This document shows positions 11,612 through 39,757 of a stretch of DNA of 40,787 nucleotides, piece by piece. Position numbers and translations under genes: made by a program. This DNA is from Christensenellaceae bacterium (GTDB lineage Bacteria > Bacillota > Clostridia > Christensenellales > DTU072): assembly GCA_031278175.1 (NCBI GenBank), contig JAITLB010000149.1, forward strand, positions 1-40,787. Direction: 5' to 3'. The notes under the pieces are model-generated. The model made no database searches. It worked only from the letters and a program-made list of their open reading frames with translations, and was not told where the DNA came from. Position 1 is the first letter of the stretch; every line of letters begins with the position of its first letter.

Positions 11612-12436
11612 TTATTTGTTGGATGAGTTGGTTTTACCTGATTGAGCAGTTGTTGTCTTTTTTGTGACTTGTGCTTTTAATTTATACTCGACTATTATAG
11701 ACTCAGTATATCCTTTCAACCTTTCTTCTAGCAGTTTATCCTCTTTTCCCATAGTCGCTTTCATTGCTCTACAAACCATAGGTTTTTTATCTTGAAGCTT
11801 CATTGCTTCATGAACTTCATCCGAATTTAATATTAGTGCTTTTTTAGTAGCATTTTCTGCACTATTCTTCATTTCGTTTATATGTTCAACAATTTCTCTT
11901 TCAGTAATACTAGAAGTCCTGAATTTTTCAGCAATTTGGTCTTTTGTTGATCCATCTTTGCTAGCAAGAAATTGAATGGTAATATTGCTTAGCTTTTCTA
12001 ATTCATCAAGACGTGAAATTATGTAATCGCCTCCCATCGCGGTTGATCGCGAAGATAAATCATAATTCCTTTGCATTTGCTTCTCTAGTGCGCTTTGTAC
12101 ATCAGCCAATCCAGCATCCAGTTTTTTGCTTAAATTTACAACACCTCTAAAATGCTTATTAAGTATTTTTATTTCTTCAACAAATTCTTTCTCTAGAGTG
12201 CTGTTGCCTGCTATTTTTTCCTGTAGTTGCATAATGCTATTAAGCAGTGTCTTTTGCAAATCGTCATGTTCTGTAATTTGACTGTTAACAGCACTACATT
12301 CTTGCATAATGCGTGAAGCTAACATGCCTATCTCGCTTATGCTTTCGAACACTTTGCTCGCAGCTTTTTTAAAGCCACTTAATTGTTCAACTGTCTGTTC
12401 AAATTTTTCAAGTATTAATTTATAATCATTATCCAT
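11612..12436 (-). CDS. Coiled-coil protein with possible winged-helix segment; partner of helicase
   Basis: Heptad-like N-terminal 150 aa; 'GSTKDQIAEKFRTSSITEREIVEHINEM' HTH-like; 7 bp from helicase gene, same strand. Confidence 0.6.
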   Translation of the reverse strand: MDNDYKLILEKFEQTVEQLSGFKKAASKVFESISEIGMLASRIMQECSAVNSQITEHDDLQKTLLNSIMQLQEKIAGNSTLEKEFVEEIKILNKHFRGVVNLSKKLDAGLADVQSALEKQMQRNYDLSSRSTAMGGDYIISRLDELEKLSNITIQFLASKDGSTKDQIAEKFRTSSITEREIVEHINEMKNSAENATKKALILNSDEVHEAMKLQDKKPMVCRAMKATMGKEDKLLEERLKGYTESIIVEYKLKAQVTKKTTTAQSGKTNSSNK

Positions 12437-12443
12437 ATTTAAT

Positions 12444-14858
12444 CTATAGTTCCTTTATTTCATTAAGTAATTTCTCTATCTCGTCATTCCCCTCATCAAC
12501 GTAACCGCTGTTGCAAATGCTTAGAAACATTATTTCATCGAAGTTGGGGTGACTGTTTATTGCTTTTCTAACATCTTCTCTGGCAATTGGCTTTCCTGCG
12601 CACTTTAGTGCTAATAATTCACTGTGATGGTCGCCCATGTGACCAAATAATTCAGCTGACTTCTCGTATTCTTCAACTGCGAAAAACTCTTTAGCAAACA
12701 CGGATTCTTCGCTTATAAATTCAATACCGTTATACATCTCAAATGTTTCTTGCCAATCAATATACATTTGTGAAATGCGCTCACCCTTTTTGTCACCAGC
12801 TCTTTTAAATGCTTCGCGCGATTGCTTGTAACGCTGCTCTGCTTTAAGATGTTGCGCCTCTTTTAACCAATCTTCGGGGTTTTTCGTTTCACTTACCAGA
12901 TTTTTTAATGCGTCAAAATCATTATTGGGTAGTATTTGTTGTTCTGTGAAAAATTTAGATTCTACGCTTTCATCGTATCTTTTATCTTCACAGATAAAAA
13001 TTCTATCCTGGGCACGAGTACAAGCCACATAATATTTATTAAAAACCATACGATGAAATGTGCTTCTTTTTGCTTCGCCTGCAAGCATATCAAGAAAATA
13101 CTGTTCATTATCGCTTATTATGTTATATATGATTACATCACGATATTCTAAACCTTTAATCTCTTGTACTGTAAAAATGCGACCAGTCAAGTCGGGCAAT
13201 CTTTCTTCAAGTGCCGTTTCCGTCATTTCATCGTTGACAATGATAATACATTCTGTCGATTGGTTAGCAAAATCAAGAACTTTTTCGACAACATCGGAGT
13301 CTGTAACATAGCATGCCCAATAACTTTCATCTACACCTTGCCGCATCGATTTTTCGTCTGCGTCATCGCGACTATCCTGCTTGCCTATAAAGACTTGTCG
13401 TAGCCGCGTTAGTCTATTGATATATTCTATTAGGTGTGGACCACTACGCCATGTTTCCTTTAGAACATATTGTGGGATTTTACGCTCTACGTCACTAAAC
13501 CCATCGCGCCCTCTATAAAATATCCCTCCGATTTTTCCAAAATCAACGACAGTAGGATTTATTACTTGGTTAGGATCTCCAAATAAGAATATTTTGTGAG
13601 AAGGACAACATTGGGATAATGCTAAAATTTGAATTTCTGTTAAATCCTGCACTTCATCTACTATTATACAGTCGTATATCTTAGGTTTTTTTAACAGCGC
13701 TGATGCGCAATCATTATCATCATGCCTATTCAATTGATCGAGTCGAGCTTGATATGCTTCGGCCGCGACATATATCTCTCGAACCTCATCCTCTTCCAAC
13801 TTTTCTTTTTTAGTAAATTGCTTAAATTCATCAAAAGATATTAACCCACTAAGATTGTTCCTGTCACCATTTAGTACACCGCCCTTGATAACTCCACGGA
13901 TGTATGTGTAAACGTTTGTTTCAGTTAAATTAGAACATCTGCGTCTTGCTTTTTCTGAAATACTCACTAATCTCTCTGGTCTTGGTTCGATGACACGTGT
14001 GATAATGTTACTCTTTTTAGAGAATTCGTTAAATGTATAACACTGAGGTTCGTCTATGCCCATGGCAACAAGCAACTTACTAGCATGTCTGCGCATATTC
14101 TCAGTTAGTGTTATATACACTATGGACTTAACAACTTTATAAAGTCTGCGATAAAATTCTAAACTTAAAATAGTTTTGCCGCTTCCTGCGCTTCCCCTTA
14201 TTATTACAGGTGGTTCTACTCTTATATACCCTTGTTGCTTTGATGATAGTATTGGAAGATCTGTTGCTGCAAAATAAAGTGGGTGAATAAACTCTATTTC
14301 ATCCCTATAGCAATTTTTGACAACTGCTTTAACTTTCTCTATTATTTTTTCAAATCTTATTTTCCCTTGTTCCAACTCACTACGACTTTCTAAAGCTATA
14401 TCTTTTTGCTCATCATGTATCTCAACGTAAGCTAAAAATATGATATCACTGTCCTTTATAAGTTCATTGTCAATATTTGCACTACTTCCATATACATAAA
14501 CAATGCGAGCTGAGCGCGTTACTCTGAACTTAAACGTTGCAGGGTAAATATCTTTGAATTTTTTAGAATTTCTAGTGTCGAGGCGATCGCGAATCTCTGT
14601 TGGAGAGAGACCACTTAACGACTTAATTATTGCTTTTACCTTGGCGCGCTTTTGCGATTTGAGCGCTTCTACATCGTTTTTAAACCGACTTGAAACAATT
14701 ATGCGACATTCACCATCAGCGGGAATGTCGCTGTCAGTAGGTGTGTCCTCGTACAATGATTCGTATTCTAGCAACTGTTCCTCTTGCAAATCTGCAAAGA
14801 AACTTAATTGATCAAGATCCAAATCGCCTTTTTCTTTTGATGTCTTGTCTTTTATCAT
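12444..14858 (-). CDS. SF1 (UvrD/Rep-like) helicase with N-terminal RelE/ParE-like domain and C-terminal helical-repeat region
   Basis: RelE-like 'IIVSSRFKNDVEALK...FKFRVTRSARIVYVYG'; Walker A GSAGSGKT; 'CIIVDEVQDLTEIQI'; motif V 'TVQEIKGLEYRDVII'; motif VI 'YVACTRAQDRIFI'. Confidence 0.85.
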   Translation of the reverse strand: MIKDKTSKEKGDLDLDQLSFFADLQEEQLLEYESLYEDTPTDSDIPADGECRIIVSSRFKNDVEALKSQKRAKVKAIIKSLSGLSPTEIRDRLDTRNSKKFKDIYPATFKFRVTRSARIVYVYGSSANIDNELIKDSDIIFLAYVEIHDEQKDIALESRSELEQGKIRFEKIIEKVKAVVKNCYRDEIEFIHPLYFAATDLPILSSKQQGYIRVEPPVIIRGSAGSGKTILSLEFYRRLYKVVKSIVYITLTENMRRHASKLLVAMGIDEPQCYTFNEFSKKSNIITRVIEPRPERLVSISEKARRRCSNLTETNVYTYIRGVIKGGVLNGDRNNLSGLISFDEFKQFTKKEKLEEDEVREIYVAAEAYQARLDQLNRHDDNDCASALLKKPKIYDCIIVDEVQDLTEIQILALSQCCPSHKIFLFGDPNQVINPTVVDFGKIGGIFYRGRDGFSDVERKIPQYVLKETWRSGPHLIEYINRLTRLRQVFIGKQDSRDDADEKSMRQGVDESYWACYVTDSDVVEKVLDFANQSTECIIIVNDEMTETALEERLPDLTGRIFTVQEIKGLEYRDVIIYNIISDNEQYFLDMLAGEAKRSTFHRMVFNKYYVACTRAQDRIFICEDKRYDESVESKFFTEQQILPNNDFDALKNLVSETKNPEDWLKEAQHLKAEQRYKQSREAFKRAGDKKGERISQMYIDWQETFEMYNGIEFISEESVFAKEFFAVEEYEKSAELFGHMGDHHSELLALKCAGKPIAREDVRKAINSHPNFDEIMFLSICNSGYVDEGNDEIEKLLNEIKEL

Positions 14859-37823: not shown

Positions 37824-38194
37824 ATAGAATCAAACATAAATGAAGCCGAGAAATTGGATCAACGAAATGATGAATAATTGGTGTATTACAAGACCAAAGC
37901 GGAAATTAAATTCCGTGCCAGATTTGCTAATCACATTTAGCGAAATACAACTCAATCAAGCATGGGGAGGTGCAATGTCAACGCATCTCTCTTGAAAAGC
38001 ACTAGAGAAAGCTGGGTTAAAACGTGTTATGGACAGGACGTAATGTTCAATACCCCCCGAACTATTCCTGGAGTAGAGCAATTGGACAGTTGCTCTTTGA
38101 ACCGTAATGCTTGTTTGACAACGAGACGCGCACACAAAACTCTGTCTTGTTTGAATACACATGAACTACTAATTTGGAAAACATGGTGGTCGTA

Positions 38195-39757
38195 ATGGAT
38201 ATCTGCTATAAAAAATTATGGACACTCCTGCTTGAAAGGGACTTGAGCAAAGATGACTTGCGCAAGCTGACGGGAATTTCAACATCATCCATCGCAAAGC
38301 TTGCCAAATGCGAGAATGTAAACACGGACATCCTTGTGAAAATCTGCTTGGGGCTGAATTGTCAATTGCACGAGATTATGGATCTTGCTCCGATGAAGTC
38401 GCAAATGGCAACAGTTAATCTGGAAATGGAAAGTCAAAACATCGAATGGAAAGAAAAATGGCACGATGAGTATCTCCACACCCTCTGCGCCTTCGCTAAC
38501 GCGAGCGGCGGCATGATTGAAATCGGACGAACAGATAAAGGTGAAATGATCGGCATTTCGGATGCCCGCAAGCTCCTCGAAGCGTTGCCGAGCAAGTTCC
38601 GAAGTTCTATGGGTATTGTTGCCGATGTTGACCTCGCGGAGGAAAACAGCATGCAATTTCTCCGCGTGACGGTCAAAGCTCATCCGCACCCTATAAGTTG
38701 TAACGGCAAGTATTACTACCGCGCTGGTGGAACAACACAAGAGTTGACAGGCAATGCGCTTGACGAGTTTCTGCTTCGCAAGCAGGGTAAAACTTGGGAC
38801 GGCATGCCCGTACCGCACATCGGTGTCAGCGACTTCGCGCGCGATGCTTTTATGATATTCCGCAAGAAAGCGGTCGAGAGTACCCGAATGACCGAAGAGG
38901 ACTTGCAGATGTCAGATGAGTCCCTTCTTGACAACTTGCGCCTCACCGAGGGCAGTTATCTTCGCCGCGCTGCGATCCTGCTCTTTCATCAGGACGCGGA
39001 AAAGTGGGTGACGGGGGCATATGTAAAAGTTGGCAAGTTCGCAAGTGACACAGACTTGGTGTATCAGCACGAAGTACACGGTCCGTTGATTTCCCTGCCC
39101 GACAAGGTTATGGAGGTTATCTACCTCAATTACTTTAAGGGCATTATAAGCTACAACGGGATTCAGCGGGTGGAAACCTATCCTGTGCCACACGCGGCAT
39201 TTCGCGAAGCCATTACCAATGCCATTGTTCACCGCGATTACAGCACAGGCACACCGATTCAAATTAAGGTATTTGACGACCGCGTGATTATATACAACGA
39301 TGGACGTTTGCTGGAAAAATGGACGATTGAGGACTTGTTTCTCACGCACCGATCCGAGCCGCACAACCCGCTCATCTCCAACGCTTTCTTCCGCGCTGGA
39401 ATGATTGAGTCTTGGGGACGCGGCATTGAAAAGATAACCGAAACTTGCAAGAAAGCGGGGAAATCCGCGCCTGTGATTGAATACAAGCACAACCGCGAGT
39501 TTTCGGTGACCTTTTTCTGTGATGTCGCCATCACTGAAAACATCACCAAGAGCAACAGCGTTCGCGAAACGCAAGAGAGAATCATCGCGATTATGGTAGC
39601 GAACCCGACCGTTACAGCAAAGGCATTGTCTGCGGATCTTGGCATAGCGGACAGAGATATAAAGAACCACATCAAGGCACTCAAAGCTGCGGGGCTGGTG
39701 AAACGCGTGGGCATAGTTAAGGGGCGTCATTGGGTCGTGAAACAGGAGGAAAACTAA
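38195..39757 (+). CDS. N-terminal Cro/C1-type (HTH_26-like) HTH fused to AlbA_2 / RecG-like ATP-binding regulator
   Basis: 'MDICYKKLWTLLLERDLSKDDLRKLTGISTSSIAKLAKCENVNTDILVKICLGLNCQLHEIMDLAP' then 'MATVNLEMESQNIEWKEKWHDEYLHTLCAFANASGGMIEIG...FREAITNAIVHRDY...RGIEKI...'; the track ORF begins at 38174. Confidence 0.9.
   Translation: MDICYKKLWTLLLERDLSKDDLRKLTGISTSSIAKLAKCENVNTDILVKICLGLNCQLHEIMDLAPMKSQMATVNLEMESQNIEWKEKWHDEYLHTLCAFANASGGMIEIGRTDKGEMIGISDARKLLEALPSKFRSSMGIVADVDLAEENSMQFLRVTVKAHPHPISCNGKYYYRAGGTTQELTGNALDEFLLRKQGKTWDGMPVPHIGVSDFARDAFMIFRKKAVESTRMTEEDLQMSDESLLDNLRLTEGSYLRRAAILLFHQDAEKWVTGAYVKVGKFASDTDLVYQHEVHGPLISLPDKVMEVIYLNYFKGIISYNGIQRVETYPVPHAAFREAITNAIVHRDYSTGTPIQIKVFDDRVIIYNDGRLLEKWTIEDLFLTHRSEPHNPLISNAFFRAGMIESWGRGIEKITETCKKAGKSAPVIEYKHNREFSVTFFCDVAITENITKSNSVRETQERIIAIMVANPTVTAKALSADLGIADRDIKNHIKALKAAGLVKRVGIVKGRHWVVKQEEN

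Follow-up and report, generated by a model that had tools for sequence, protein, structure and literature searches.

A RelE/YoeB-type domain fused to an SF1 helicase, followed directly by the gene for a coiled-coil protein, makes up a two-gene module that we hold, with middling confidence, to be accessory, horizontally moving and directed at translating ribosomes, most likely for defence or stress-triggered translation control. The computed basis of this reading is the fold, the catalytic-type residues, the ATPase motifs, the conserved pair, its patchy spread, and the tie between a sister branch of the family and a release factor. The module lies in the window, by which we mean the whole stretch of DNA analysed: one entire contig of 40,787 bases from a 2.7-Mb draft genome. 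Both open reading frames and the short spacing from stop to start given in the first-pass annotation were confirmed (Table 1).

Table 1. Features of the helicase–partner pair in the window.
Feature	Position	Strand	Evidence
RelE-like / SF1 (UvrD-type) helicase / helical-repeat fusion, 804 aa	12444..14858	-	ORF and translation; Pfam UvrD-helicase 1.5e-12; AF2 full-length pLDDT 80.6; Foldseek UvrD/PcrA/HelD
RelE/YoeB-fold domain, residues 43–169 as modelled (strands/helices 53–162)	14352..14732	-	AF2, Foldseek, profile matches, conservation
SF1A helicase core, about residues 213–642	12933..14222	-	Pfam, conserved motifs, AF2 model
C-terminal helical-repeat (TPR-like) tail, about residues 661–804	12447..12878	-	All-helical model segment; TPR in relatives L038, L039
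Coiled-coil partner, 274 aa, 7 nt past helicase stop	11612..12436	-	ORF; heptad analysis; profile test

The pair stands isolated between unrelated genes, as had been claimed (GGDEF, V4R, NifS-like, SDR, response-regulator, and leu genes), and its wider surroundings are ordinary, with leucine biosynthesis, SpoVAD, GGDEF, and V4R. The same two genes are kept in both congeneric genomes at 59–62 per cent identity. Just upstream of the pair in one of these (G001, L026 8280–10357), we saw by eye apparent cytosine-5 DNA methyltransferase fragments and a transposase-like ORF, which suggests a decayed mobile or restriction locus. Both congeners also have a giant lipoprotein-like gene 3′ of the pair (L026 14225–20000, >1900 aa; L027 5594–13294, 2566 aa) that is absent beside the window’s pair. 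At the far end of the window (38174–39757, +) is a protein with a Cro-type HTH, a Schlafen AlbA_2 domain, and a RecG-C-like HATPase; this region has 48 per cent GC against about 36 per cent elsewhere and was possibly acquired. An rRNA operon was ruled out as the source of the GC rise at 36–41 kb.

The segment that had been likened to RelE/ParE toxins is found at residues 52–124 of the 804-aa protein. Single-sequence Pfam and NCBIfam scans of the N-terminal domain did not recognize RelE, so profile and fold comparisons were needed; the PADLOC model CARF_RelE gave a weak single-sequence match to the same residues (E = 0.016). With forty-four relatives aligned (A5), the AF2 model of residues 43–169 (pLDDT 90.6) has the order strand-helix-helix-(helix)-strand-strand-strand-helix, i.e. 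b-a-a-b-b-b-a, and folds as RelE/YoeB. Its best solved structures in Foldseek are YoeB and RelE toxins (prob 1.00), with TM-scores up to about 0.7 when normalized to the toxin. Single E-values are modest (best 1.6e-3), and the argument lies in the consistency of the match list, which includes, lower down, the ribosome-bound CARF-RelE protein Cami1. A profile search with the domain returned RelE3 of Methanococcus (3bpq) at E = 4.3e-4 and then YoeBs. The predicted RelE-type fold of this segment is thus borne out.

Across forty-five homologues from many phyla, R118 is present in all forty-five, H148 in forty-four, and D149 in forty-one, with R118 and H148 the most conserved residues of the domain. 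Most homologues also carry a basic K or R at residues 99, 100, and 112, and the basic residues 99–102, 110, and 112 occupy catalytic-type positions alongside R118, H148, and D149. In the HMMER alignment, the Arg in YoeB ‘HRLVY’ falls opposite R118; by the usual numbering this is R65 of YoeB and R61 of RelE. H148 lines up with YoeB H83, and the residue roles would correspond. No exact counterpart of YoeB E46 was established in the profile alignment or the conservation analysis. R118 and H148 thus match RelE/YoeB catalytic positions. The first-pass annotation had left the toxin as either RNase or gyrase type. Given the conserved basic and His positions the choice narrows to a RelE/YoeB-type RNase, and the gyrase half is disfavoured: the best structural matches are YoeB and RelE, and conservation of R118/H148-type residues would not be expected in a ParE-type gyrase inhibitor. 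By sequence and model, then, the domain looks like a ribosome-dependent mRNase.

The full UvrD-like helicase core that had been proposed is also present. PF00580 scores above the Pfam cut-off, and the SF1 motifs are intact: Walker A GSAGSGKT (222–229), motif II DEVQD (401–405), motif III GDPNQ (427–431), motif IV WR (470–471), motif V KGLE (568–571), and motif VI YVACTRA (610–616). Their key residues are invariant in twenty-nine diverse relatives. UvrD, PcrA, and HelD are the closest solved structures to the full-length model. Residues 661–803 are predicted to be all-helical, with nine or so helices, in keeping with the C-terminal helical-repeat region described earlier. Other relatives carry TPR, and one on a Deinococcus plasmid (L042 7860–10652) has a helicase core followed by ankyrin repeats. 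This layout of helicase and TPR or ankyrin repeats presumably resembles that of the eukaryotic TRANK1 protein.

The partner was first described as coiled-coil or HTH-like. The coiled coil holds: residues 1–130, which carry the N-terminal helix of the family, show a hydrophobic (heptad) pattern of period 3.5 (z = 17), and residues 131–274 are helical and non-heptad. For the HTH-like part, the only match is a winged-helix one of E = 0.07. At 151 and 146 aa, the congeneric partners fall short of the window’s protein, whose residues 130–274 or so (11612–12050, -) have no counterpart in either of them or in their flanks. In thirty-one loci a downstream gene overlaps or abuts the helicase, the gap ranging from -47 to +17 nt and lying mostly between -11 and -4. 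One or two of the genes counted are unrelated (e.g. L046); the pair recurs in about thirty loci. Using a profile of the partner N-termini of other lineages, held-out partners were separated from unrelated ORFs with an AUC of 0.987, a value that coiled-coil composition may inflate. The window’s own partner is weak in this test (rank 109 of 2459), while that of congener L044 ranks third. Across lineages the partners are coiled coils of 150–400 aa with variable tails, some with a membrane helix predicted by eye (L051, L053, L084). A docking helix that stays constant while the tail varies would suit an adaptor or sensor; the sensor or inhibitor role first proposed is likewise putative. Long-form relatives, with helicases of 1000–1400 aa, have no partner.

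The thirty or so loci with both genes come from Clostridia, Bacilli, Mollicutes, Elusimicrobia, Negativicutes, and a Calditrichaeota. Relatives of the helicase are spread more widely, over Bacillota, Mycoplasmatota, Elusimicrobiota, Fusobacteriota, Cyanobacteriota, Acidobacteriota, Calditrichota, and a few archaeal bins, and are also found on Shigella/E. coli plasmids, which may be virulence plasmids. The helicase occurs once per genome in all three genomes of the window’s genus and in only four other genomes of 391 from the class (E ≤ 1e-20). In the tree, the window’s genus groups with a Tenericutes sequence (100*) and apart from a branch of its own family, so the copy in this genus was probably acquired by transfer. 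A single-sequence query against genome contigs gave no match. With few genomes, a limitation to one genus within the family, and tree discordance, a housekeeping operon was rejected; the accessory character suggested at the outset is upheld, and by these sequence comparisons the pair is a mobile accessory module. A search of phages and viral contigs found no homologue, which counts against our main reading.

Another branch of the helicase–partner pair is common in the window’s family, at about 20 per cent identity, with a helicase of about 800 aa and a coiled coil of about 238 aa. Its N-terminal domain shows no RelE signature (hhalign prob 7%; no PDB match), and RelE homology for it is unsupported. 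This branch is associated with a third class-I release factor, found besides prfA and prfB in 19/19 genomes with the branch and 1/12 without it (19/0/1/11; Fisher 1.4e-7). Phylogenetic dependence inflates this family-wide P-value, so a contrast within one genus is the cleaner evidence: the paralogue is present in five of five genomes with the branch and none of four without it (5/0/0/4), the two being gained and lost together. The paralogue usually lies just upstream of the helicase, on the same contig in fourteen of the nineteen tabulated genomes and mostly with 1.3–2.4 kb between match starts; in G006 the helicase is directly downstream of it. It scores 90–182 bits against prfA model cut-offs of 400–423. 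All eleven paralogues in the alignment have lost the PxT/SPF stop-codon loop and keep GGQ, and their N-terminal domain is full-length. Judged by sequence, loss of the loop with GGQ retained is what one would expect of a codon-independent release factor.

The genes of this branch form a four-gene operon (L029 6728–12939 in G004, with equivalents in L030–L032 and L006–L021), in the order loop-less release-factor paralogue, SF1 helicase, 238-aa coiled coil, and membrane protein. At the N-terminus of the last, a ‘FGRFPLLSLCYLY’ segment is conserved; its outer part is large and repetitive. PrfH/RtcB and other rescue release factors (PMC6514570) resemble the sister branch, though not the window type, in that a paralogue sits in an accessory, transferred operon. 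They differ in that the sister-branch paralogue is partnered with the helicase/coiled-coil pair rather than RtcB, and has a full-length N-terminal domain and a deleted stop-codon loop.

That a sister branch is tied to a rescue-type release factor suggests the ribosome as the site of action, though the tie belongs to a branch of about 20 per cent identity without a detectable RelE domain, which counts against the main reading. The paralogue is absent from the genomes of the window’s genus, and no release-factor gene was found near the helicase in any RelE-type locus examined; the two A-site effectors therefore look mutually exclusive. A tentative generalization is that the helicase–coiled-coil pair is a ribosome-clearing motor on which different A-site effectors are mounted. 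In the window and most lineages this would be a RelE-type mRNA endonuclease fused in cis; in the sister branch, within the same family, a release factor blind to stop codons and supplied in trans.

A somewhat more doubtful possibility is that the module serves ribosome rescue or mRNA quality control and has no immune purpose. The pair would recognize stalled ribosomes and pull the mRNA, with the RelE domain cutting A-site mRNA; in the sister branch the peptide would instead be freed by a release factor that needs no codon. RelE-type toxins act in the ribosomal A site, which favours this explanation, as do the linkage and co-inheritance with the loop-less paralogue and the apparent exclusivity of the two effectors. 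However, the patchy, transferred spread and the defence-gene neighbours fit conflict systems better, and the release-factor branch is distant. Of the two roles offered in the first-pass annotation, defence and RNA quality control, the second may stand equal to the first in light of the release-factor tie.

A defence role is plausible in our analysis because a known defence protein has the same architecture and several relatives adjoin defence genes. In ArmD of ARMADA type II, a UvrD/GajB-like helicase carries a RelE-like predicted RNase at its N-terminus, and deletion of armD or mutation of the Walker A lysine abolishes phage protection (PMC12458937). The RelE–UvrD fusion type is thus already known. 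The likeness between ArmD and the window protein is one of domain architecture. ArmD is the fourth gene in a cluster with ArmA (BrxHII), ArmB (PglX), and ArmC (YprA) (PMC12458937), whereas the window pair has none of these three genes and has the coiled-coil partner instead; the gene order ArmA-ArmB-ArmC-ArmD is absent there. In addition, infected cells carrying ARMADA are metabolically active, with no metabolic shutdown (PMC12458937), and this hardly resembles a general arrest of the RelE type. Known or candidate defence genes near relatives include PDC-M16B and HEC-06/Orf5-like (L085), PDC-M38A/B (L076), a NERD-UvrD protein (L051), LeoA/LeoBC-like (L095), and Mokosh-like helicases (L087), in relatives chosen by eye and without a random control. 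The window copy itself sits among housekeeping genes and outside any defence island, which weighs against the main reading.

Defence directed at DNA is the less likely form. In that case a GajB/ArmD-like UvrD helicase would act on phage DNA, and the RelE fold would be merely a nucleic-acid or protein-binding platform. PADLOC matches GajB to the helicase core, Foldseek returns UvrD/PcrA–DNA complexes, and ArmD works with DNA-acting helicases and a methyltransferase. Yet R118 and H148 are the best conserved residues of the N-terminal domain, no methyltransferase, nuclease, or GajA (the OLD-type nuclease of Gabija) gene lies beside the window pair, and the sister branch is linked to a release factor.

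A type II toxin–antitoxin module, in which the partner neutralizes a RelE–helicase toxin, is very improbable. A RelE fold does lie beside a small co-directional protein gene, but the partner gene comes after the toxin and encodes a 150–400-aa coiled coil with variable tails; the partner matches no antitoxin family in Pfam, PADLOC, or NCBIfam scans; and the long-form relatives do without it. Least credible of all is an RNA-polymerase recycling motor of the HelD/HelR kind, since HelD, though among the top structural and profile matches, resembles the protein in the helicase core only, has no RelE domain, and scores 23.4 bits against an NCBIfam cut-off of 419 with no full-length family match.

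Returning to a module directed at translating ribosomes, the N-terminal domain would be an mRNA endonuclease acting in the A site of the ribosome. By moving along or sensing nucleic acid (mRNA, or single strands of an invader), the SF1 motor may gate or position the nuclease, and the helical-repeat tail and coiled-coil protein may keep the complex assembled and supply the trigger or inhibition. Once triggered, the module would cut mRNA in stalled or invaded ribosomes, and translation of the invader or the cell would stop. The window type would then be a triggered, ATP-gated RelE-type mRNase; its RNase activity, ribosome dependence, trigger, partner role, and anti-phage outcome are what we infer from the features above.

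RelE toxins are normally small free proteins silenced by an antitoxin. The ribosome-dependent mRNases RelE, YoeB, and HigB share with the N-terminal domain the fold and the positions of the conserved Arg and C-terminal His, but they are free toxins of 80–90 aa with an antitoxin, whereas the window’s domain is extended to about 120 aa and forms one protein with an SF1 motor. Cami1 (CARF-RelE, PDB 8phb/8phj) likewise couples a regulatory unit to a RelE domain and, from the structure titles, works on the 70S ribosome; its regulatory unit is a ligand-binding CARF sensor, in contrast to the ATP-driven helicase and partner protein of the window. The SF1A helicases UvrD, PcrA, and HelD have the core fold and motifs in common with the window protein, whose core is preceded by a RelE domain and followed by helical repeats, and whose gene has a conserved neighbour. 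Helicases do not figure in a 2025 review of multidomain RelE/ParE proteins (PMC11980606), and our literature search found no description of the two-gene module, its breadth, or the sister branch linked to a release factor.

Here a RelE nuclease fold and an ATP-driven motor form one protein, accompanied by a separate coiled-coil partner, an arrangement that recurs across several phyla. The module also gives a clue to the possible role of ArmD in ARMADA. If the release-factor link is what it appears to be, the motor works on ribosomes and would represent an unrecognized, helicase-driven way to stop or rescue translation. Should the pair prove to be a general motor for either effector, a new class would be added to the immune or rescue machines that target ribosomes.
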